A stretch of 64,000 bases of DNA from Burkholderiaceae bacterium 26. Its GTDB lineage: Bacteria > Pseudomonadota > Gammaproteobacteria > Burkholderiales > Burkholderiaceae. Location: positions 62,001-126,000 of the forward strand of contig JYOB01000003.1 in NCBI GenBank assembly GCA_000955795.1. The letters run 5' to 3'. The notes beneath the pieces were generated by a model. That model saw only the letters and a program-made list of their open reading frames with translations, was not told where the DNA came from and did no database searches. Made by a program: the position numbers and the translations under genes. This document shows positions 27,188 to 38,477 of the stretch, piece after piece (within the stretch, counting starts at the first letter, position 1; every line of letters begins with the position of its first letter).

Positions 27188-30064
27188 ATGGATGCTTCCG
27201 CCAATGCTCAATGCGTCCGCATGACTGATTCCGCCTTGTCCGCCCAGCCGTTTTTGCAAGCTCCGGCCCGCGCGCCGGAGGCTCCCGCTGCTGCACTGCC
27301 TTTTGCACTTGCGTATTCGCGCTATCTCCAGCGCCAAGCGCAAGCGCGCGAGGGCTGGGCCGAGCGCGTGCAGGCCGGCGCAGGGCAGCCGATTGACGTG
27401 GCGTGGCTGTCGGCGCGCTTTACCGAGCTGTTCGACACCAAGGCCGTGGAGGTCGAGACTGCGCTCAAGCGCGCCTTGCGCCTGCTGCGCAATGAAGTCT
27501 TCGGCACACTGGTTGAGCGTGATTTGTCCGGCGCCGCGACGCTCGATGAGGTCACGGGCACGATGACCGACCTGGCCGAGTTTGCGGTGCGCACGGCCAT
27601 TTCCGTGATCGGCCAGGAACTGAGCGCGCTGCACGGCCAGCCGATCGGGCAATCCTCCGGCGAGGTGCAGGAGCTGGTGGTGGTCGGCATGGGCAAGCTG
27701 GGCGGGCGCGAGCTGAACGTCTCGTCCGACATCGACCTGATCTTTCTCTACGACGATGATGGCGACACGCAGGGCGGCCCGCGCCCGCTCTCCAATCACG
27801 AATATTTCACGAAGCTTGGCCGGCGGCTGATCAACGCGCTGGCCGATGTGACGGAGGACGGCTACGTCTTCCGCGTCGACATGCGCCTGCGCCCGAACGG
27901 CGATGCGGGGCCGCTTGCGTGCAGTCTGGGCATGCTCGAGGAGTACTTCGTCGTGCAGGGCCGCGAGTGGGAGCGCTACGCCTGGATCAAGGGCCGCGTG
28001 ATCACCGACCCGACCAGCCCGCATGCGGCCCGGGTCATTCAACAGTTGGAGCGCGTGACGGGCCCGTTCGTCTTCCGGCGCTATCTCGATTACGGCGTGA
28101 TCTCCGCCATTCGCGCGCTGCATGCGCAGATCCGCAACGAGGCCGCCAAGCGCAGCAATGGCGCCAACCAGCAGCGCGATAATGCGGGCCACCTGCAGGC
28201 TCGTTCGCCCAACATCAAGCTCGGGCGCGGCGGCATTCGCGAGATTGAATTCGTCGCGCAGGTGTTTCAGCTCATTCGCGGCGGGCAAGACTTCGGGCTG
28301 CGCGTGCGGCCCACGCTGGAGGTGCTGCGGGCGGCGTCGGAACGCGGCCTGATCGACGTCGAAGCCGTGGCGCGCCTGACTGAGGCCTATCGCTTCCTGC
28401 GCCAGCTTGAACACCGCCTGCAGTACATCGAGGACGCGCAAACGCACAACCTGCCTGGCTCGCCGGAAGACCAGTTGTGCGTGGCGCGCATGATGGGTTT
28501 TGACGACTATGTGGCGCTGGTCGCCAAGCTTGAGGCGTACCAGGACGAAGTCGCCCAGCATTTCGATCAGACCTTTTCCGACAAGCAGGACAGCCAGCCG
28601 CCGTGCGCCGCCGTCTGGCATGCGGACCTGCTCGACGATGAGCACACGGAGACCGCCCGCGCACAGCTCGCCGAACTCGGCTACGCAAATCCTGACAGCG
28701 TGCTGGAGCGGCTGCGCGCGACGCGCAATTCGCCGCGTTATCGCGCGTTGTCCGAAGTCAGCCGCCAACGTTTTGACTTGCTGATCAACCGCGCGCTTGA
28801 CCAGGCATCGCGGCAGACAGATGCCGATGTCACCATCGCACGCTTTCTCGATTTCTTTGACGCGATCAGCCGGCGCTCGTCGTACCTCTCGCTGCTGAGC
28901 GAATATCCGCAGGCCATGGAGCGCGTGGCCCACACGCTGCATGCGTCGCGCTGGGCGGCGGACTATCTCACGCGCCATCCGCAACTGCTTGATGAGCTGC
29001 TCGACGTGGAAGCGCTGTCGGCCGAGCCCGATTGGCCCGCGTTCCGGGCGCGCGTGCGAGACCGTTTGCAGGCAGCGTCCGACCATGTCGAGATGCAGAT
29101 GGACATCCTGCGCCAGGAGCACCATGCGGAAACCTTCCGGGTGTTGCTGCAGGACCTGCAAGGCATGCTGAGTGTCGAGCACATCAGCGACCGGCTTTCC
29201 GATCTGGCAGATGCCGTGCTGGACCTTACGCTTGAAACTGTCTGGCAGCAGGTTTCGACACGTCACCGCGAGGTGCCGCGCTTTGCCGTGGTTGCCTACG
29301 GGCGGCTCGGCGGCAAGGAACTCGGCTATGCGTCGGACCTCGACGTCATCTTCCTCTACGACGACGATGACGAACGCGCGCCCGATGTCTACGCGTCATT
29401 CGCGCGCAAGCTCATCACGTGGCTGACGAGCCATACCGCCGCAGGCATGCTGTTCGACGTCGATACGCGCTTGCGCCCGAACGGTGCCGCGGGTTTGATG
29501 GTCACGCACTTCGAAGCCTTCCGCCGTTATCAGATGCGCGAGGGCGACAACGCCGCGTGGGTGTGGGAGCACCAGGCGCTCACGCGTGCACGCTTCTGCG
29601 CGGGCGATGCGGAAATCGGCGAGCGCTTCGAGGCGCTGCGCACCGCCGTGTTGCGCCAGCAGCGCGAACCTGGCCCGCTGCGCGACGAGATCGTGGCGAT
29701 GCGCGAGCGCGTGGCGGAAGGTCATGCGAATCCCACGGGGCTGTTTGATCTCAAGCACGATCGCGGAGGCATGGTCGATATCGAATTCACCGTGCAATTC
29801 CTGGTGCTTCTGCATAGCGCGGCGCATGCCGAGCTGACCCTTAACAAGGGAAACATCGCGCTACTGCGCATGGCTGGCGAACTCGGGTTGATTGACGCGA
29901 CAGCAGCCGCGCAAGTGGCCGATGCCTATCGGGACTTCCGCGCGCGTCAGCACAAGTTGCGACTCGACGGGCAATCCGTTGCCCGCGTACCGGTCGACAC
30001 CTGCGCGCACGAGGCCGCTCGCGTACGTGCGTTGTGGGAGCAGGTGTTCGGGCCCGCGCAATGA
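27188..30064 (+). CDS. glnE: glutamine synthetase adenylyltransferase/deadenylylase GlnE
   Basis: A 958-residue bifunctional enzyme that adds and removes AMP on glutamine synthetase in response to PII. Two nucleotidyltransferase domains are visible: the N-terminal deadenylylase motif GMGKLGGRELNVSSDIDLIF and the C-terminal adenylylase motif YGRLGGKELGYASDLDVIF, joined by a helical regulatory linker. The first ATG (27188) has only a weak GCGAGA upstream; an alternative ATG at 27221 has none, so the start is uncertain by 11 codons. The stop overlaps the rhombosortase start (ATGA), coupling two unrelated functions. Confidence 0.94.
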   Translation: MDASANAQCVRMTDSALSAQPFLQAPARAPEAPAAALPFALAYSRYLQRQAQAREGWAERVQAGAGQPIDVAWLSARFTELFDTKAVEVETALKRALRLLRNEVFGTLVERDLSGAATLDEVTGTMTDLAEFAVRTAISVIGQELSALHGQPIGQSSGEVQELVVVGMGKLGGRELNVSSDIDLIFLYDDDGDTQGGPRPLSNHEYFTKLGRRLINALADVTEDGYVFRVDMRLRPNGDAGPLACSLGMLEEYFVVQGREWERYAWIKGRVITDPTSPHAARVIQQLERVTGPFVFRRYLDYGVISAIRALHAQIRNEAAKRSNGANQQRDNAGHLQARSPNIKLGRGGIREIEFVAQVFQLIRGGQDFGLRVRPTLEVLRAASERGLIDVEAVARLTEAYRFLRQLEHRLQYIEDAQTHNLPGSPEDQLCVARMMGFDDYVALVAKLEAYQDEVAQHFDQTFSDKQDSQPPCAAVWHADLLDDEHTETARAQLAELGYANPDSVLERLRATRNSPRYRALSEVSRQRFDLLINRALDQASRQTDADVTIARFLDFFDAISRRSSYLSLLSEYPQAMERVAHTLHASRWAADYLTRHPQLLDELLDVEALSAEPDWPAFRARVRDRLQAASDHVEMQMDILRQEHHAETFRVLLQDLQGMLSVEHISDRLSDLADAVLDLTLETVWQQVSTRHREVPRFAVVAYGRLGGKELGYASDLDVIFLYDDDDERAPDVYASFARKLITWLTSHTAAGMLFDVDTRLRPNGAAGLMVTHFEAFRRYQMREGDNAAWVWEHQALTRARFCAGDAEIGERFEALRTAVLRQQREPGPLRDEIVAMRERVAEGHANPTGLFDLKHDRGGMVDIEFTVQFLVLLHSAAHAELTLNKGNIALLRMAGELGLIDATAAAQVADAYRDFRARQHKLRLDGQSVARVPVDTCAHEAARVRALWEQVFGPAQ

Positions 30065-30678
30065 GGGTGCATCGGCAAACGCTGCACACGTGGGGCGCAT
30101 GCGCCGGTGTGGCCGCGCTGTCGGCGGCGTTCTCGTTCGTGCCGTGGCTGTATGCGGTCGGGCTGTATCAACGCGAGGCCGTGCGCGGGGGGCAGTGGTG
30201 GCGCATCGTGACCGCCATGTGGGTGCATCTGGACCAGTGGCATTGGTTGGCGGATGCGATGGCGGCCGTAGGGCTCATCCTGCTGCTGGCGCGTGTGTTG
30301 CGGCCGCAGGTCATCGTTGGAGCGCTGGTGGCGTGCGGGGTGCTTGTGCAGATCGCACTGCTCAATCAGCCGACGGTGCAGTGGTACGGCGGGCTCTCCG
30401 GCGCGCTGCATGGCCTTGCGGCATGGGGCGGGCTACGGCTGCTGAAGCCATCCACGGACGGGGCAGAGGATCGTTTCTCACGCTGGATTGGCGTGGCGCT
30501 GTGCGCGGGCGTGCTGGTGAAGGTGTGGCTCGAACAGTCGTGGCTGTCGCCCATCGCCTATGACCCGCACTGGGGGTTTGGCGTGGTGCGTATCGCGCAT
30601 GCCTTTGGCGCGGCCAGCGGGTTGCTGGTTTGGGTGTTGGGGGAGTGGCGCCTTCGCGACAATCGGCTGCGTAGGTAA
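30061..30678 (+). CDS. rrtA: rhombosortase (rhomboid-family GlyGly-CTERM sorting protease)
   Basis: A 205-residue inner-membrane protein with about six transmembrane helices. Rhomboid features are GQWWRIVTAMWVHLDQWH (residues 44-61), the catalytic serine in GLSG (S113 within 111-114), and the catalytic His in AHAFGAASG (H180). Small size and this layout fit the rhombosortase family (TIGR03902), which cleaves and transfers proteins carrying a GlyGly-CTERM tail. Two proteins with exactly that tail are encoded at 30762-32723 and 33360-34994. The ATG overlaps the glnE stop, so its translation depends on glnE. An ordinary rhomboid protease is the alternative; the neighbours argue against it. Confidence 0.85.
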   Translation: MRVHRQTLHTWGACAGVAALSAAFSFVPWLYAVGLYQREAVRGGQWWRIVTAMWVHLDQWHWLADAMAAVGLILLLARVLRPQVIVGALVACGVLVQIALLNQPTVQWYGGLSGALHGLAAWGGLRLLKPSTDGAEDRFSRWIGVALCAGVLVKVWLEQSWLSPIAYDPHWGFGVVRIAHAFGAASGLLVWVLGEWRLRDNRLRR

Positions 30679-30718
30679 GCAGCGGAAAGCCCGACGGGAC
30701 AAAGCGGGAGTGGGAAAA

Positions 30719-30745
30719 GGCCCGCGCCCAATCAAGGCGCGGGCC
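30719..30745 (-). terminator. terminator of the first S8 protease gene
   Basis: Stem GGCCCGCGCC (30719-30728) with GGCGCGGGCC (30736-30745), 7-base loop, followed on the minus strand by TTTT. It lies 16 bases beyond the protease stop; the plus-strand side has no T-run, so it serves the minus strand. Confidence 0.85.
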
Positions 30746-30761
30746 GAAAGTACCGATAGGC

Positions 30762-32723
30762 TTACTTCACGCGACGCCGACGGCCGGCCAAGCCGGCGGC
30801 CAGCAGCAATGCTGCGCCGCCCAGGCCAATAGCGCCGCCACCGCCGCCACCGCTGGACGTGGTCGTCGCAGGCGGGGTGGTGGTGCCGGTGCTCGCTGCT
30901 GCTGCAGTGACTGTCACGTTGGCGGTATCGGTGGCACTCGCGCCGGTGTTGCTCGTCAGCGTTACCTTGAAGGCGTAGGTGCCCTCGGCCGATGGCGTGA
31001 AGGTAGCGGTGTAATTGCCGTTGCTATCGGGGCCGGCAGTGGTGAGGCTGACGGACGGCCCAGAAGTTTGCGCCCACTGCACGCTCGTAATGGTATTGAC
31101 GAGGCCTGCATTGCCGGTTGCTGTGAGCGTGACCGCGTTGTTTGCGACCACTGTGCTTGCCGACGTCGATGCGTGCACAGTCGGATTGCCCTTCGCCAGC
31201 GCAACGGCGGCACCCGCATCCAGCATGCCGGCGCCGCAGACGCCCGTATGCGTTGCGCAGTATGTGCCGGCCGGGAATGGGCGAGCCGACTGCTGGAGGA
31301 CGGTGGCAATCTGATCTGGTGTCAGCGAGCTGTTGACCGACAGCATCAGCGCGGCGACGCCTGCCACGTGTGGCGTGGCCATCGAGGTGCCGCCTTCGGC
31401 GGTGTAACCGTCTGTGGTGGCCGTGGTCGTGCCCATGTTCGTCACCGACGCAACCAGCGCTCCCAGGCCCGGGACTACCGAACCGTTACCACCGCCAGGC
31501 GCACTGAGCGTCGTGCCAGTGCCGACGTTCGCGTAACTGGCTCTGTCGCCTTCGAAGGTATGCGCCGTAACGGCGATGGTTCCTACGCAGTTGGCGGGCG
31601 TACCAATGGTCGTCGTGTTGCCTTCATTGCCAGTTGCCACCACGATGGCAGCGCCGCGGGCACGTGCGGCCGAGATGGCGTTTTGCGTGGGGGTATCGCA
31701 ACTGCCGACGCCGCCCAGGCTCATGTTGACGACCTTGGCGGGGGCCGTATTGACCGTGCTGACGCCGGTAACGGTGCCGCCAGTTGCCCACGTCAGTGCA
31801 TCGATGATGTCAGAGCTTGAACCGCCGCATTTGCCGAGCACGCGTGCCATCAACAGGCTGACGCCCGGGGCGATGCCGGCGACGCCTATGCTGTTATGTT
31901 GCGCGACGAGTTGGCCGGTGACGAAGGTGCCGTGCCAGGAACTGTTGGAGGGCGACAGACCACCGCAGAGCGTCGGGTTGCTGGTGATATCCGTGCTGGT
32001 GACCCAGTCGCCCGGATCGGTCGGGTCGCTGCCACGTCCGGCGCCACCTTGATTATTGACAAAGGGGTTCGTGATGAAGTCGTAACCCTGGTTGATGTGC
32101 GCCCCCGACAAGTCGGCGTGGCCTGCAAGAATGCCGGTATCGAGCACGGCGACGCTGACGTTGCTCGAACCTTTGGTCGTGTCCCAAGCGGTGGTCACGT
32201 TAGCGCCACCCACCGTTGTCGCACCATTGGCGGGCACAATGCTACCGACCGTGACGACGTTGTTGACGGTGCCGGTCGTAGGGAGCAGGTTCCATTGGTA
32301 TTGGAACAACGGATCGGACGGCGTGGAAGCCGCATGCCAGATCCGGTCTGGAGACACATATTCAAATTGGCCGCTGGCTTCCATGCGCTGGGCCACGGCC
32401 TGTGCGTCTGCTACCGACATGGTTTGCGGCAACGTGACCACATGAGCCCCGCCCGACATTGCGCGCTTGTACGTCATCGGCAACTGTGCAGCGGCCGACC
32501 AGCGTTGCACTGCCGCAACGTTCACGCGCGTTGCCGTCTCCGCGGATTGCAACTGGGATGTGCCGCCGCCGCTCTTTTCCTTGACGATCAACTGCGACAC
32601 CCATTGCGTCTGGGCGCCAACGTTTGCGACCGGGCCGACGGCCAGTGCCGGGACAGCGTGATACGACACCAGTCCGAGCGCTGCCAGCGCACGAACCAAC
32701 CCCCCTGAGATACTTCTTGTCAT
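30762..32723 (-). CDS. secreted subtilisin-like (S8) protease with GlyGly-CTERM tail
   Basis: A 653-residue secreted serine protease. Layout: signal peptide (1-28), prodomain (about 40-130, ending YVSPDRIWH), S8 catalytic domain with D195 (VLDTG), H264 (SWHGT), oxyanion N366 (ATGNEG) and S447 (GGTSMATPH). An Ig/PKD-like domain spans about 514-606. A Thr/Pro/Ser linker then leads to the GlyGly-CTERM signal: G625-G630, a hydrophobic helix 631-647 and RRRR at 648-651. The start at 32723 is set by GAAGGGG upstream; another ATG at 32750 has no ribosome site. The paired Cys near 489-496 is shared with the neighbouring protease, so the two are paralogues. Expected at the cell surface after type II secretion and rhombosortase processing. 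Confidence 0.9.
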   Translation of the reverse strand: MTRSISGGLVRALAALGLVSYHAVPALAVGPVANVGAQTQWVSQLIVKEKSGGGTSQLQSAETATRVNVAAVQRWSAAAQLPMTYKRAMSGGAHVVTLPQTMSVADAQAVAQRMEASGQFEYVSPDRIWHAASTPSDPLFQYQWNLLPTTGTVNNVVTVGSIVPANGATTVGGANVTTAWDTTKGSSNVSVAVLDTGILAGHADLSGAHINQGYDFITNPFVNNQGGAGRGSDPTDPGDWVTSTDITSNPTLCGGLSPSNSSWHGTFVTGQLVAQHNSIGVAGIAPGVSLLMARVLGKCGGSSSDIIDALTWATGGTVTGVSTVNTAPAKVVNMSLGGVGSCDTPTQNAISAARARGAAIVVATGNEGNTTTIGTPANCVGTIAVTAHTFEGDRASYANVGTGTTLSAPGGGNGSVVPGLGALVASVTNMGTTTATTDGYTAEGGTSMATPHVAGVAALMLSVNSSLTPDQIATVLQQSARPFPAGTYCATHTGVCGAGMLDAGAAVALAKGNPTVHASTSASTVVANNAVTLTATGNAGLVNTITSVQWAQTSGPSVSLTTAGPDSNGNYTATFTPSAEGTYAFKVTLTSNTGASATDTANVTVTAAAASTGTTTPPATTTSSGGGGGGAIGLGGAALLLAAGLAGRRRRVK

Positions 32724-32809
32724 TCGAATTACCCCTTCTTTTATGGACATATTGCGAAATTCGCGGCGGTATTTTCGCTGATGAGTGTGAAAGGAGCGTT
32801 TTATTTGTT

Positions 32810-32828
32810 ATTAGGGGAAAACCCTAAT
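32810..32828. promoter_or_regulatory. interrupted palindrome upstream of the first S8 protease
   Basis: ATTAGGG (32810-32816) and CCCTAAT (32822-32828) are perfect 7-base arms around GAAAA, 87 bases upstream of the chosen ATG. The position suits an operator for a dimeric regulator, or a hairpin in the leader. No regulator is identified. Confidence 0.4.
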
Positions 32829-33324
32829 ACCCTTGAGCGGGGCAGATATCACATCACATTAGGTCTGACGCTGGAAGAAAAACGCGCGCTACCCGATGCT
32901 GGGTTTTCAGTGAGCGAAGGTGTTGAATGCGCTACTTCGCATTTGCGCGGACCGACCGCCTAACGCGAGCGGTAGTAATGCGCCCGCCTCAATCTTGGTC
33001 TAGCGAGGAAGCCTCCATGCCGGCCGTGGTGTCGGTTTCTGGCTCGCGGCTGTTCCTTTTCCGGATCACGCCGACGGTATCGGTGCGGCTGAATGCCGTA
33101 CGAGACCGATTACCATCAGCGCATGAGCAAAGCCCGGGGTGGCAGATTTCTCCGGGGTAAATAACATTTATTGTTAATAATTGCTACTTGATTGTTGAGA
33201 TAAATCAACACTGCGCCGAGTAAATGATTCGGGCACAAACGTATTAATCGTAGGCCGCGTACGCGATGACTTGCGAGCCCGAGAATGGAGCTCAGAGAGG
33301 AACAGCAGAGGAAGAAAGTCAGAC

Positions 33325-33346
33325 GCCCACACCAAGCGATGCGGGC
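33325..33346 (-). terminator. possible terminator of the second S8 protease gene
   Basis: A 9-bp stem with two G-T wobbles on the minus strand (GCCCGCATC with GGTGTGGGC), loop of four, followed by a pyrimidine-rich tail. It lies 13 bases past the protease stop. It is weaker than the other terminators in the window. Confidence 0.4.
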
Positions 33347-33359
33347 GGGGTAGGTAGTG

Positions 33360-34994
33360 TCAGTTGTGGTCTCGACGCCGGCATGCGAGCCCCAGCGCCA
33401 TCAGCAGCGCTGCGCCCGCCAGCGGGATGGCCCCGCCGCCTCCGCCACCACCGCCGCTCGTACCCCCGGTCGATCCGCCCGACCCCGTGCCACTGCCCGC
33501 GCCTGCAGGGGCTGTGTTCTGGGCATAACTGACGGCACCGGCGGTATCCAGCAGGCCAGCGCCGCAGATGCCGGTGTTCACAGCGCAGAACGTGCCGCTC
33601 GGGTGCGGCCGCGCGGTCTGCTTCAGGCCAGCCAATACTTGCGCATTCGACAACTGTGGCTGCATGCTCAGCATGAGCGCGATGGTGGCGGCTGTTTCAG
33701 GTGTCGAAAAGCTCGTACCCGCCACCGATTTGACCGTCGGGTTGCCGACAGTCTGTGCACCATCGTTGGAGTCGGCCTGGATAACGGACACGGGCTCCGC
33801 ACAAGTCGCCGGAGTCGTACTCGTCACGACCTTCGAGTTGCCGCAGCCCCCCCCTGGCGCGGACAACGCCACCTGCGGCCCCACGTTTGCGTAGCTGGCG
33901 TTCTCGCCGCTGTCGACGTGCGCGGTGACGGCGATGGCGCCAGCGCAATTGGCCGGTGCATCAACGGTCTGTGCGGCTTCATTGCCGGCGGCGGCCACTA
34001 CGATGGCGCCACGTGCGGCCAACTGGTTGACGGCGTCTTGTTCTGCCGCAGAGCACTGCGTGGTGCTGCCCAGGCTCACGTTCACCACCCGTGCCGGGTT
34101 GGCGTTGGTCGGCACGCCAGATACGTTGATGCCGCCCGCCCACAACATGCCGTCTACCGTGTCGGACAGCAGCGCGCCGCATTTGCCCGACACGCGTACC
34201 GGCACGATCGGCGTGTTCCAGCCGACCCCTGCGATATCGACGGTGTTGTTTGTCTGGGCGGCGAGCACGCTGCTGACCTCGGTACCGTGCCAGCTGCTAT
34301 TGGCGATATCGCTGCTGGTGCAGCCCGAAATGTTTGCGACATCCGTGCTCGTTACGCCATCGCCTAGGTCATGCGCGTCCGTTCCGCGGCCGAAGGTGTT
34401 ACCGGCGCGCGCCGGGTCGGAAATGAAGTTGTAGCCCGGCAGGATCTTGGCTGACAGGTCGGGGTGATCGGTATAGCCGGTATCGACCACCGCCACCACG
34501 ATGCCAGTGGAGCCCTGCGTGATGCTCCACGCCGCGGCCGCGTTGATGCCGCCCGGCACCAGCGCCGGTGCGGCCAGGTTGTTCTGCGTGGCGAACAGCG
34601 GATCGTTCGGAATGGTGTTAGGCCGCAGGATGCGATCAGGCACCACATAGGCCACGCGGGCATCCTGCGCGATCTTGTGGACGGTGGCCTGGATGCTGGC
34701 GGCATCGGTCAGCCCTGTGCGCATGAGCTGCGCGTTGGTGCCCAGCGTGCGCTTGACCTGCAGCGTGCTGCCCGCCGCTTGCGCTACCGACAGCAACCGG
34801 TTGTCCGCCTCGCTGGCGGAGAGCGTCTTGCGCGTGCCGCTCGTGTCGTCGCGCCATTTGATGATCAGGTCACCAGTGTATTGCGGCAGCGGCGCGGCAG
34901 CTGTAGCGACCTGGCTGCCCATCACCCAGGCAAGACAGGCAAGGCCGGCGCCCGCGCGGAGCCAAGACTTCAACCGGAAGAGGGAGGGGGTCAT
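33360..34994 (-). CDS. second secreted S8 protease with GlyGly-CTERM tail
   Basis: A 544-residue paralogue of the preceding protease without the Ig/PKD-like domain. Signal peptide 1-33, prodomain about 40-124 (from GDLIIKW to VVPDRILRP), then catalytic D171 (VVDTG), H236 (SWHGT), N338 (AAGNEA) and S428 (AGTSFSTPE). The catalytic Ser is kept but the usual MATPHVAG context has become FSTPETAA. The C-terminus has a Gly/Ser/Thr linker, G515-G521, a hydrophobic helix 522-537, then CRRR: a GlyGly-CTERM signal with a Cys before the basic cluster. GGAG lies nine bases before the ATG. Expected substrate of the rhombosortase at 30061. Confidence 0.9.
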   Translation of the reverse strand: MTPSLFRLKSWLRAGAGLACLAWVMGSQVATAAAPLPQYTGDLIIKWRDDTSGTRKTLSASEADNRLLSVAQAAGSTLQVKRTLGTNAQLMRTGLTDAASIQATVHKIAQDARVAYVVPDRILRPNTIPNDPLFATQNNLAAPALVPGGINAAAAWSITQGSTGIVVAVVDTGYTDHPDLSAKILPGYNFISDPARAGNTFGRGTDAHDLGDGVTSTDVANISGCTSSDIANSSWHGTEVSSVLAAQTNNTVDIAGVGWNTPIVPVRVSGKCGALLSDTVDGMLWAGGINVSGVPTNANPARVVNVSLGSTTQCSAAEQDAVNQLAARGAIVVAAAGNEAAQTVDAPANCAGAIAVTAHVDSGENASYANVGPQVALSAPGGGCGNSKVVTSTTPATCAEPVSVIQADSNDGAQTVGNPTVKSVAGTSFSTPETAATIALMLSMQPQLSNAQVLAGLKQTARPHPSGTFCAVNTGICGAGLLDTAGAVSYAQNTAPAGAGSGTGSGGSTGGTSGGGGGGGGAIPLAGAALLMALGLACRRRDHN

Positions 34995-35257
34995 CAGCGG
35001 GTGCTCCGTGGGGTCTCGTTGTAATGAGAAACGTCGTCAGGATGTGATCGTTGACATACCGTTACACAAAACCAAAGGTAGCACGCGACTTGTCCGCTTG
35101 GTGTGGCGGCGACGGCCGATCACGTTTGCGAGGGGAAAAAGGCCGGTTGTGAGTTGCTGCTGAAGCAGAATGCGGGCCCGGCGACGGAACGTGGAGCAGG
35201 AAACCGGACGCCACGCGGCGCCCGATCTTTCACAGTGTGGAGCGGTGTCGCGGTGGT

Positions 35258-35722
35258 TCAGCGTTGGATTTTCATGATGCGATCCGGGTCGGCCGAGGCG
35301 ATGCCGGGCGTGCCGCGCAACGCTGTCACTGCGCCATCCAGCGTGGCCGATGCATCGCCCGAGCTAGCGCGCACCACCCAGAACCCGCCCGACATCGGAC
35401 GTACCACCGCAAAGGCCAGGCGCGGCGTCGCGCGTGCACCGGCAGCATCCAGCACGCCTTGCACGGTGGCGGACGACGTGGTCGGCGTGCTTAGGCCAAT
35501 GATGACGTCGCCCAGATTGTGTGCAGCCGACACGGAAGCTGGAGGCTGGGTGTTGGCCGAGGTCGGGTCCATGGCAGGCGGTTTTCCTGGGTCAATGGCC
35601 GGAACGGATTTGCACGCGGTCAGCAGGCACAGGCCGAGCGCTATCGCCAGCGCAGGCTTGGCGGACGACAGCAGGGATCGAGGGCGGGCAGCCGGTTGGA
35701 TCGTGCGGGCCATGCGGGCCAT
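35258..35722 (-). CDS. lipoprotein resembling a free-standing S8 protease prodomain
   Basis: A 154-residue predicted lipoprotein. The lipobox is LLTAC with Cys37; Lys and Ser at +2 and +3 give no inner-membrane retention signal, so outer-membrane placement is expected. A Pro/Ala/Ser linker runs to about residue 68. Residues 70-154 match the prodomains of the two neighbouring proteases: GDVIIGL (cf. GDLIIKW), RPMSGGFWVV (cf. RAMSGGAHVV) and the end DPDRIM (cf. SPDRIW, VPDRIL). The protein stops where the proteases' catalytic domains would begin. I infer an inhibitor or folding chaperone for these proteases. AAGGAG precedes the ATG at 35722. I do not know a named family for it. Confidence 0.78.
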   Translation of the reverse strand: MARMARTIQPAARPRSLLSSAKPALAIALGLCLLTACKSVPAIDPGKPPAMDPTSANTQPPASVSAAHNLGDVIIGLSTPTTSSATVQGVLDAAGARATPRLAFAVVRPMSGGFWVVRASSGDASATLDGAVTALRGTPGIASADPDRIMKIQR

Positions 35723-35815
35723 GAAGTTCTCCTTGGATTCGGTAGAGGATGTTTGTCGCGTGTGCAGCCGGAACCTTCGTGCCAACCCTGGCAGCAATGG
35801 TTCCGGTATAGGCGA

Positions 35816-37522
35816 TCACTGTGCCGCGCGGCGGGATTTCCGCGCCGCGGATTCCGGTGCCGATTGCGCACGGCCCGCGGCGAGCATCTCGTCTGCGTGG
35901 CGCCGCGTGGTGTCAGTGAGCGACGCGCCGCCCAGCATGCGAGCGATCTCGTCCACGCGGGCGGTGGCGTCCAGCACCACGAGGTCGGACCGCGTGCTGC
36001 CAGCCACCGTCTGCTTGGCGACCTGAATGTGGTGATTGGCGAGCGCGGCCACTTGCGGCAGGTGAGTGACGCACAGCACTTGGCGGCGTATGCCCAGTTC
36101 GCGCAGGCGCCGGCCCACGACTTCCGCAACCGCACCGCCAATGCCGGAGTCCACTTCGTCGAAGATGAGCGTGGGCGTCGGGCTGGCCTCGCTTGCAATC
36201 ACCGAGATGGCCAGGCTGATCCGCGCCAACTCGCCACCCGAGGCGACTTTCGCCAAAGGCCGCGGCGAAACGCCCGCATGCCCGGCGACGAGGAATTCGA
36301 CCTGCTCCAGCCCCGCCGCGCCGCCGTGTTCCAGCGCGTGCAGCGCGATGTCGAAGCGTCCACCGGCCATCGAGAGGCCTTGCATGGCGCCGGTCACCGC
36401 GTCGGCCAGCTCGCGCGCGGCCTTGGCGCGGTCGCGCGACAGCGATTGCGCGACCGTCATATACGCGGCGTGGGTTTGCGCTTCCTGGGCCTGCAGGGCA
36501 TCAAGATCGGATGCAGCTTGCAGCGCGGCGAGTTGCGCCTGGCGTTCAGCCAGTTCAGCCGGCAGCGTTTCGGGGGCGACGCGGTATTTGCGCGCCATGG
36601 TGTGCAGCGCTTGCATGCGCGCGTCGACTTCGGCCAGTCGGTCCGGGTCCAGCTCCGCGCGATCAGCATAGCGAGCCAGCGTGTGCACGGCTTCCTGGAT
36701 CTGCACCTCGGCCGGTTCCAGCGCGGCCAGCACGTCGGCAAGCGCCGGGTCGATCTCGGCCAGTTCACGCAGCGTATGGAGCGTCGCGCCCAGTTGCGTG
36801 AGCACCGCGCCTTCCGATTCGGACAAACCATCCAGCGCCGCGCGCGTGCCTTCGATCAGGCTGGCTGCGTGCGACAGGCGGTGGTGCTCGGCCTGCACGT
36901 CTTCCCACTCGCCCGGTTGGGGGCCAAGCTTCTGCAATTCGTTGACCTGCCATTCGATGCGCTCGCGCTCGAGCTGGACTTCGCGCGACTGCTGCTCGGC
37001 AGCTTCACGTGCGCGCACCACGGCGTGCCATTCCCGGTAGCGTTCGCCGACCACGCGCACGGCACCTTCCAGGCCCGCGTGGGCGTCGAGCAGGCTGCGC
37101 TGCGCATCCGCCTTGAGCAGCAGTTGATGCGCGTGCTGGCCGTGGATGTCGACCAGTTGCTCACCCACTTCGCGCAGCTGCGCCAGCGTGACGGCCGCGC
37201 CGTTGATGAAGGCTTTGCTGCGACCTGCGGCATCGACCGTGCGGCGGAGCAGAATCACGCCCTCGTCGTCGTGCAGTTCATGCGCCTCGAGCCATGCGGC
37301 CACATGCGGATGCACGTCGAACTCGGCGGTGATGTCGGCACGCGGCGCGCCTTCGCGCACGACGGCGGCATCGGCGCGCTCGCCCAGCGTGAGTGCAAGC
37401 GCATCGATCAGGATGGATTTGCCCGCGCCGGTCTCGCCCGTAAACACGGTAAAACCGTCGGCCAGATCGAGATCCAGCGCGTGAACGATGACGAAATCGC
37501 GGATGGTGAGGCTGCGCAGCAT
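35816..37522 (-). CDS. recN: DNA repair protein RecN
   Basis: A 568-residue SMC-like ATPase that acts in double-strand-break repair. Walker A is GETGAGKS at 29-36, a long coiled-coil region occupies about 150-370, and the C-terminal half has the SVASGGELARISLA signature and IFDEVDSGIGG Walker B. Length matches RecN (E. coli 553). The ATG lies 10 bases after the nadK stop, with a weak ribosome site, so it is probably coupled to nadK. No LexA box was recognised upstream. Confidence 0.94.
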   Translation of the reverse strand: MLRSLTIRDFVIVHALDLDLADGFTVFTGETGAGKSILIDALALTLGERADAAVVREGAPRADITAEFDVHPHVAAWLEAHELHDDEGVILLRRTVDAAGRSKAFINGAAVTLAQLREVGEQLVDIHGQHAHQLLLKADAQRSLLDAHAGLEGAVRVVGERYREWHAVVRAREAAEQQSREVQLERERIEWQVNELQKLGPQPGEWEDVQAEHHRLSHAASLIEGTRAALDGLSESEGAVLTQLGATLHTLRELAEIDPALADVLAALEPAEVQIQEAVHTLARYADRAELDPDRLAEVDARMQALHTMARKYRVAPETLPAELAERQAQLAALQAASDLDALQAQEAQTHAAYMTVAQSLSRDRAKAARELADAVTGAMQGLSMAGGRFDIALHALEHGGAAGLEQVEFLVAGHAGVSPRPLAKVASGGELARISLAISVIASEASPTPTLIFDEVDSGIGGAVAEVVGRRLRELGIRRQVLCVTHLPQVAALANHHIQVAKQTVAGSTRSDLVVLDATARVDEIARMLGGASLTDTTRRHADEMLAAGRAQSAPESAARKSRRAAQ

Positions 37523-37532
37523 GGAAGAGGTG

Positions 37533-38477
37533 TTAGAGCCGGTTGTCTTCGGTCGGGTACTCGTGCCAGTGCAACTTCTTACGCAGCGTGGCGTAGTAGT
37601 TGTACCCGATCGGGTGCAGCAGCCGCACCGTGCGCTCCGAGCGGCGCACCACGATGCGGTCACCGGGTAGCAAGGACGTGAGCGACTGCATGTCGAAGTT
37701 GACGCTGGCATCGCGCCCGCTGGTGACCTGGATGACCACCTCCGCGTCTTGCGGAATGACGATCGGCCGGTTCGACAGCGAGTGCGGTGCGATAGGCACC
37801 AGCACCAGACCCGAGAGCGCCGGATGCAGGATCGGCCCGCCTGCGGACAGTGCATACGCCGTCGAGCCCGTGGGCGTGGAAACGATCAAGCCGTCCGAAC
37901 GCTGGTTGTACATGAAGAAGCCGTCGACCGACACCGCCAGCTCCACCATGCCCGAGGTGCCCGAGCGGTTGACCACCACGTCATTGAAGGCGAGGGCGGA
38001 GAAGATGACCTCGTCGTCGCGCACGACCTGGGCCTGCAGCAGCGTGCGGGTTTCGGCCTCGTAGCGGCCCGATAACATGTCGGGCAGCACGGTGTGCACG
38101 TCGTCGAACGGGATGTCGGTCATAAAACCGAGCCGCCCGTGGTTGACGCCGATCACGGGGACGCTGGCACCGGCCAGGTGGCGCCCGATGCCGAGCAGCG
38201 TGCCGTCGCCGCCGAGCACGACGGCCACGTCGGCGTGGCGCGCCATCTCTTCGGGCGGCAGGGCAGGGTAATCCTGGACGCCGATGTTGAGCGCCGTGTC
38301 TCGCTCGAACACAATGTCATGCCCGCGCGCGGCAATGCACGACGCCAGTTCCATGAGCGGGCCGGCAATGTTGGCGGCCGAATACCGGCCGACCAGCGCG
38401 ACGGTCTTGAAAGGCGAAACAGGCGAAGACGAGGCGGCGGGAGCTTGCGGGGCCACGGCGGACGGGGGAATCGACAT
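37533..38477 (-). CDS. nadK: NAD kinase
   Basis: A 314-residue ATP-NAD kinase, the sole route from NAD to NADP. The phosphate site is GGDGT at 89-93 ([14 protein letters not shown]), followed by [12 protein letters not shown], the substrate motif [14 protein letters not shown] and the C-terminal [12 protein letters not shown]. An N-terminal Pro/Ala/Ser tail of about 22 residues is longer than in E. coli. The start at 38477 is chosen since it begins after a palindrome (38490-38503) and lies within normal length. Divergent from hrcA and followed by recN. Confidence 0.93.

Follow-up and report, generated by a model that had tools for sequence, protein, structure and literature searches.

A predicted lipoprotein with a detached subtilase prodomain is encoded beside an S8 protease in Ralstonia and related bacteria

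Gram-negative bacteria secrete subtilases, and the protection of the cells against these enzymes is generally attributed to the prodomain that each protease carries in cis. Stand-alone propeptide inhibitors (MEROPS I9) are also known, and those named in PMC6993865 include POIA1, the yeast peptidase B inhibitor and Arabidopsis SPI-1, with TgMIC5 and Plasmodium SUB1-ProM as related cases; SUB1-ProM is described there as an adjacent stand-alone propeptide inhibitor. The potempins of Tannerella forsythia are introduced in PMC7296668, as data to be published, as specific inhibitors of the co-expressed enzyme, and the six potempin ORFs are reported to have no significant sequence similarity among themselves (PMC4404884). 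ORF2 of Aeromonas sobria is described as binding around the catalytic site with its C-terminal region, and as both inhibiting and supporting folding (PMC5638518).

Here we compare these systems with a locus from Burkholderiaceae bacterium 26. The window, that is, the whole stretch of DNA that was analysed, spans 64,000 nucleotides of contig JYOB01000003.1 and encodes a predicted lipoprotein of 154 residues, P0001.

The lipoprotein gene, its neighbours and its homology to S8 prodomains

On the minus strand of the window, recN is followed by the lipoprotein gene and by two subtilase genes, S8a and S8b, after which comes a convergent rhomboid-family gene. The features of the locus are as follows.

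35258..35722, minus strand: gene for a predicted lipoprotein with a stand-alone S8 prodomain (P0001, 154 aa; from the translation)
35612..35722, minus strand: signal peptide and lipobox with Cys37 (LTAC; from the sequence)
35522..35611, minus strand: Pro/Ala-rich linker, residues 38-67 (low pLDDT, strong conservation in Ralstonia)
35261..35521, minus strand: prodomain-like domain, residues 68-154 (hhalign probability 98.3% to the S8a prodomain; PDB profile search)
35261..35284, minus strand: C-terminal tail, D147-R154, counterpart of the tail by which a prodomain reaches into the active site of the protease
33360..34994, minus strand: S8a, secreted subtilase and presumed target, with its own prodomain (residues 38-126), a catalytic domain and a GlyGly-CTERM tail
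30762..32750, minus strand: S8b, second subtilase and possible second target, with its own prodomain and a PKD-like domain
30034..30678, plus strand: rhombosortase, which processes GlyGly-CTERM proteins (TIGR03902)

The lipobox of P0001, L34-T-A-C37, satisfies the strict bacterial lipoprotein pattern, as the initial annotation had proposed for Cys37. The residue at +2 is Lys and not Asp, and a lipobox without Asp at +2 points to the outer membrane. Lipidation at Cys37 and sorting to the outer membrane are thus predicted from the sequence. P0001 had zero Pfam matches, even at E 10. In NCBIfam, its residues 31-51 weakly matched the lipoprotein BcpO (12.1 bits, cut-off 80), an identity that we rejected because the match is confined to the lipobox region. 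An Rfam scan of positions 30000-38000 gave zero matches, and promoter and terminator scans gave no signal above chance.

S8a matches the subtilase family (PF00082, 132.7 bits), and its sequence contains the catalytic residues Asp171, His236 and Ser428 in DTG, HGT and GTSFSTP motifs. Its GlyGly-CTERM tail scores 23.5 bits with TIGR03867, above the curated cut-off of 19.7. S8b (PF00082, 162.5 bits) has a tail that falls just under the same cut-off, at 17.6. The rhombosortase scores 142.9 bits with TIGR03902, for which the cut-off is 84. In the account given in PMC6219818, Vibrio cholerae VesB is cut by rhombosortase, receives a glycerophosphoethanolamine-containing group and is then taken to the cell surface by the type II system. 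Considering this precedent, together with the GlyGly-CTERM tail and the rhombosortase in the cluster, S8a is probably a surface protease. This agrees with the proposed location of the lipoprotein gene beside surface proteases.

The initial annotation had further suggested that the domain matches the neighbouring propeptides block by block and represents a detached S8 prodomain. Pairwise BLASTP of P0001 against either neighbouring protease was not significant (best E 0.23), so the block match is unconvincing on its own, and its MSGG block matches S8b and its GDxII block S8a. It is the profiles that decide. In hhalign, 32 lipoprotein domains matched the S8a prodomain with a probability of 98.3% over 90 columns and the S8b prodomain with 92.6% over 46 columns, with prodomain profiles from which 7 of 33 S8a-type and 1 of 14 S8b-type stretches had been lost to the cutting pattern. 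The Ralstonia lipoproteins alone gave 96.2% and 62.2%, respectively. Reversed profiles scored 0.3-0.4%, and the best of 100 column-shuffled profiles reached 2.6% (S8a) and 3.8% (S8b). The shuffles rule out a chance similarity.

When all PDB sequences were searched with a profile built from 19 detached domains, 12 matches were obtained at E 10 or below. The top six were all S8 chains (8c4z, proteinase K 8rse, the subtilisin BPN' prosegment 1spb, 8c4x, 3bgo and subtilisin E 1scj) at E 0.003 to 0.042, covering only about the last third of the prodomain, and the next was a ribosomal protein at E 0.081. At E up to 1, PF22148 matched eight of the 19 detached members (best E 0.0002) and Inhibitor_I9 matched two (best E 0.15). 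Among five further detached relatives, only L215 exceeded the PF22148 cut-off (22.3 versus 21 bits). P0001 stays below the curated Pfam cut-offs for both families, and the window's S8a prodomain, which is one by position, likewise matches neither. P0001 is kin by profile to the S8 prodomain superfamily (MEROPS I9-like), and these comparisons confirm the predicted identity of residues 68-154 as a stand-alone S8 (subtilase) prodomain.

The predicted fold of P0001 is a prodomain fold, and the structure prediction that had been proposed as a check thus did not yield a differing one. In the best AlphaFold model, made from a 12-sequence alignment, block-mean pLDDT was 89-94 for residues 71-140 and 71-75 for residues 141-154, and residues before about 65 were disordered. 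Two of the five models were good (mean pLDDT 69.5 and 66.8), the other three lying at 45 and below. In an AlphaFold model of S8a, the prodomain had the same order of elements; the model is weak (mean pLDDT 52) and usable only for that order. Foldseek with the P0001 model found nothing at E 0.001; other folds ranked first, and the PCSK9 prodomain appeared at rank 8 among ferredoxin-like folds.

Linkage to S8a, recurrence and descent

Lipoprotein orthologues were present in all 16 genomes of the genus, the window's included, at 76-100% identity. The 11 named relatives found are from Ralstonia or a Burkholderiaceae MAG, the best being 97% identical, in R. pickettii. Across the 66 pairs formed by 12 sequences, median dN/dS was 0.109 for the lipoprotein domain and 0.484 for its signal peptide; the S8a prodomain and catalytic domain had medians of 0.107 and 0.136. 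The lipoprotein domain is under purifying selection as strong as that on the S8a prodomain. The linker after Cys37 (KSVPAIDPGKPPAMDP..., window 35522-35611) has a median dN/dS of 0.045 (residues 37-67), below that of the folded domain, and this higher conservation in Ralstonia hints at a separate role for the disordered linker.

A Ralstonia-profile search of 299 genomes of the family found the lipoprotein in 56, namely 16 Ralstonia, 39 of genus g3, which we take to be probably Cupriavidus, and one of genus g5. An S8a orthologue, defined by at least 329 bits or, in G165, by a contig-end fragment, occurs in the same 56 of 299 genomes, and none has the S8a orthologue without the lipoprotein. In all 56, as read by eye from the match coordinates, the lipoprotein gene lies directly upstream of S8a on the same strand, which is the potempin-style position relative to a secreted protease. 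A second S8a-like gene in G275 (405 bits), on another contig (C4:2501822-2503393) and away from the recN locus, had no lipoprotein match beside it in the profile search, and G165 has a second S8a fragment at a contig end, its neighbour lying beyond that end. Distant S8 proteases in g10, g12 and g25 (at most 287 bits) had no lipoprotein match, and a wider profile found no lipoprotein at five S8 loci of the g10/g12/g25 type.

Of 31 fetched loci, 28 have the order recN, lipoprotein, S8a, rhombosortase; the other three (L077, L081 and L084) are cut by a contig end inside the cluster. Where the fetched stretch extends that far, glnE comes next. In L069 (7295-9565; G295), recN and the lipoprotein prodomain share one stop-free frame of 757 codons, explained either by read-through at the end of recN or by an error in the sequence. 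An S8b type was present in 10 of 11 Ralstonia loci and in none of the 20 g3/g5 loci. Therefore, S8a is the likely partner and S8b is not obligatory. The S8b-type genes form a tandem pair in L031, L038 and L039 and are single in seven other Ralstonia loci; none was detected in L041.

Three g3 genomes (G135, G254 and G265) have an S8a that looks interrupted, with split frames or an in-frame stop, downstream of an intact lipoprotein gene. The S8a copies concerned are as follows.

L082, 8606-10342: S8a copy that looks interrupted, upstream lipoprotein intact
L103, 5814-7579: S8a copy that looks interrupted, upstream lipoprotein intact
L104, 5358-7210: S8a copy that looks interrupted, upstream lipoprotein intact

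The reverse case, an intact S8a with a lost lipoprotein, occurred in none of the 299 genomes. An interrupted S8a beside an intact lipoprotein matches what is predicted of an inhibitor; three cases, perhaps assembly errors, prove little.

Outside the family, the Ralstonia/g3/g5 profile found matches in five genomes among 399 of the order. At three of these five loci (L098, L099 and L101) a small lipoprotein is encoded directly upstream of an S8 protease, and the other two have S8 prodomains only. We also surveyed 80 stretches around S8 matches, made up of 75 chosen matches and the five distant loci, with at most three candidates scored per genome, the five weakest matches left out and several stretches cut by contig ends. 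A lipoprotein partner was seen in eight of the 80 stretches and in none of the other 72; L098, L099 and L101, having been found via the lipoprotein profile, fall outside this count. The partner lies upstream in L107 and L146 and downstream in L161, L162, L164, L165, L168 and L170. Seven of the eight reach E 2e-4 or better, and L146 is weak, with E 0.02 and Lys at the Asp position.

Among 274 genomes of the class, the profile matched 33, one of them the genome from which the window comes. Twenty of the 32 others were examined, of which six had detached loci, 11 had in-place S8 prodomains only and three had neither. L215-L220, from four families of other orders, have a separate small ORF adjoining an S8 protease. 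A separate prodomain beside a prodomain-bearing S8 protease thus recurs within the order, in six additional families (one weak), and in four families of other orders. Small-ORF matches in L100 (10561), L118 (5944), L153 (2124), L222, L234 and L218 (886) were judged to be due to chance and dropped. L221 (3602-4006) contains a frame of 135 aa that has a prodomain-like match (E 2e-6) and whose signal peptide looks ordinary; it was left aside, as the contig ends about 320 bases on and the remaining stretch has no S8 gene.

Many of the 49 detached sequences are close relatives; 35 of them have a strict and 48 a loose lipobox, the exception to the latter being L215, which reads LLPAC. None of the 48 has Asp at +2. 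As a control, a strict lipobox precedes the prodomain in six of 141 S8 ORFs (from a set of 153). Some partner proteases have no GlyGly-CTERM tail and several end in other domains, so it is the S8 protease, and not the rhombosortase, that is constant as a partner.

A domain tree was built from 88 short domains over 88 columns, and many of its forks are unresolved. Its rows comprise 58 attached domains and 30 of the 49 detached ones, including 13 of the 32 from the Ralstonia/g3/g5 group. A single clade (100/97) unites the lipoprotein domains of Ralstonia, g3 and g5, and the S8a prodomains from these loci fall in another (100/98). L161/L162, L216/L219 and four loci of L164-L170 grouped among the detached and, separately, among the attached domains, as did the pair L107/L146 (91/90 and 98/92). 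The detached domains of L101 and L218 pair up (99/92), unlike the prodomains of their proteases. The detached/attached label changes four times on the tree, compared to a mean of 25 when shuffled. Detached and attached domains form largely separate, parallel clades, and detachment may have had a single origin. At least for Ralstonia, g3 and g5, the separate clades place detachment before the split of the three genera, with parallel descent of the two genes. A recent copy of the neighbouring prodomain is ruled out by the separate clade and by the lack of a long DNA match.

Chain end and cap residues

Subtilisin BPN' is cut at D71+6 (Tyr77). Eight of the 11 solved S8a homologues listed (7w2a, 5yl7, 9goi and others) have chains that start at S8a T127; the alignment of the remaining three begins only at residue 149. 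Based on these chain starts, which may reflect constructs, S8a would mature between N126 and T127, which is D120+6. When D147 of P0001 is aligned with S8a D120, R154 comes to lie opposite T127, and the stop is at D147+7 where cleavage is expected at D+6. The suggestion that P0001 ends at the propeptide/catalytic-domain border is therefore right within about one residue. Each of the 12 sequences aligned from the genus has its stop codon at D+7, and this own stop, in the same place, rules out that the domain is part of the protease gene. With its own start and stop, P0001 is a separate product ending near the propeptide cleavage point, as I9-type inhibitors are. The tail of the Ralstonia lipoproteins, R-I-M-K-I-Q-R, resembles the S8a tail R-I-L-R-P-N before T127.

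The chain stops at D+5 to D+7 in nine other detached loci, two of which (L146 and L217) have another residue in place of the Asp, their offset being read from the alignment. Longer tails were found in four f5 loci (+9), L107 (+10), L101 (+12), L098 (+13), L099 (+17), g3 (+18, one +24) and g5 (+19). Since many tails pass the cleavage point, product-like binding would not be universal unless the tails are trimmed. In the g3 lipoproteins (L069-L087), the tail beyond the expected cleavage point is conserved and ends in RDMPxx or close to it.

According to PMC6993865, E69 and D71 of subtilisin BPN' cap helices of the catalytic domain. The first cap position is Glu or Asp in 44 of the 49 detached domains and the second is Asp in 47 of 49; among attached prodomains, a rough count gave an acidic first position in 58 of 138. 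Retained cap residues are to be expected if the domain has been kept to dock on a subtilase.

A tethered inhibitor, its alternatives and known systems

The initial annotation had read P0001 as a local brake or intermolecular chaperone for surface proteases, and this is supported in part, namely for the detached prodomain, the lipobox, the neighbouring proteases and the predicted fold. We propose that P0001 probably acts in trans as a lipid-tethered prodomain that inhibits the neighbouring S8a and perhaps S8b. P0001 would be exported by Sec, lipidated at Cys37 and sorted to the outer membrane, where the flexible linker would present the prodomain. The prodomain would dock on the mature catalytic domain at the site vacated by the protease's own prodomain. 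There, the acidic D145 and D147 would cap the helices at the active site, and the tail IMKIQR at the C-terminus would occupy the non-prime subsites as an uncut product. It may keep prematurely matured protease inactive in the periplasm, or restrain the protease at the cell surface. Inhibition would last until the inhibitor has been degraded or the protease has left.

Lif foldases assist lipases, and P0001 shares the fold of chaperoning prodomains. The main rival reading, which we regard as unlikely, is a membrane-tethered foldase that would help S8a (or S8b) to fold or to remain secretion-competent in the periplasm, its inhibition being incidental. ORF2 provides a parallel as an adjacent external chaperone that also inhibits, with an IC50 of 84.3 nM (PMC5638518), but its partner is propeptide-deficient, going by a title cited there, whereas the partners examined here have retained theirs. 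Outside the Ralstonia/g3/g5 group, each of the 17 partner loci yields an own S8 prodomain, so no foldase is missing at these loci, and most related S8 loci show no such lipoprotein. The retained prodomains of the partner proteases make inhibition a better fit than obligatory chaperoning, although prodomains usually do both and the two roles are not cleanly separable.

It is improbable that P0001 is an immunity or self-protection lipoprotein, a potempin-like surface guard against mature external subtilases from sister cells, competitors or other loci. The lipobox without Asp at +2 suggests the outer membrane, and potempins are described as adjacent lipoproteins that inhibit the co-expressed protease (PMC7296668). 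However, the strict pairing with S8a points to the neighbour. A surface receptor or retention anchor that holds S8a at the outer membrane without inhibiting it is very improbable, as S8a is already anchored by its GlyGly-CTERM tail and the rhombosortase. Such a role would agree with the retained cap residues and with an S8a that looks surface-associated, and would be useful for the partners elsewhere that lack the tail and end in other domains. A functionless relic of a duplicated, truncated S8 gene would also stop at the prodomain border, but has next to no chance given the median dN/dS of 0.109, the retention in all 56 S8a genomes, the clade separate from the neighbours' prodomains and the 263-bp gap between the lipoprotein gene and S8a, where we found no catalytic-domain remnant (best E 0.77).

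Returning to the tethered inhibitor, we give even chances to a broader reading in which these loci represent an unnamed, widespread Gram-negative module. Its long-detached, lipid-anchored prodomains would be product-like trans inhibitors that co-descend with secreted S8 proteases, and the protease would be free only beyond the reach of the cap-bearing membrane. If inhibition in trans is correct, an anchored second prodomain would be a spatial safety device that is directly testable by genetics, and a function would be suggested for small unannotated lipoproteins adjoining S8 genes. It would also provide natural inhibitors for an industrially used group of proteases, and the route from propeptide to inhibitor, known from eukaryotes, would exist in bacteria as well.

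Like the I9-type inhibitors, P0001 is a small stand-alone product with a propeptide fold. The I9-type examples in PMC6993865 are all eukaryotic and are not called lipoproteins there, whereas P0001 is bacterial and has a lipobox and linker. P0001 resembles the potempins in that its gene, for a small lipoprotein, immediately precedes that of a secreted protease (PMC7296668, PMC4404884). Potempins are described as pairing with KLIKK metallo- and serine proteases (PMC4404884, PMC7296668); the partner of P0001 is not a KLIKK protease of Tannerella but an S8 protease ending in GlyGly-CTERM. The potempin descriptions in these two papers mention no prodomain kinship, and P0001 is set apart in this respect by description only; the two may overlap in structure. 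ORF2 is likewise a separate protein encoded beside an S8 protease, but in PMC5638518 its partner appears as propeptide-deficient and it is not called a lipoprotein; S8a and S8b both have prodomains. The cis S8 prodomains (PF22148 Fervidolysin_NPro-like and PF05922 Inhibitor_I9) are homologous to P0001 by profile. Unlike them, P0001 is detached and has a lipoprotein signal and its own stop codon near the maturation border.

In a search of the open-access literature, we found no report that joins a stand-alone propeptide inhibitor with a lipoprotein inhibitor. The initial annotation had suggested that the arrangement would be distinct. The arrangement is less isolated than was implied, since SUB1-ProM (PMC6993865) and the potempins (PMC7296668) have been described and since it recurs in the class. 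P0001 lies between the I9-type stand-alone propeptides and the potempin-like lipoprotein inhibitors.
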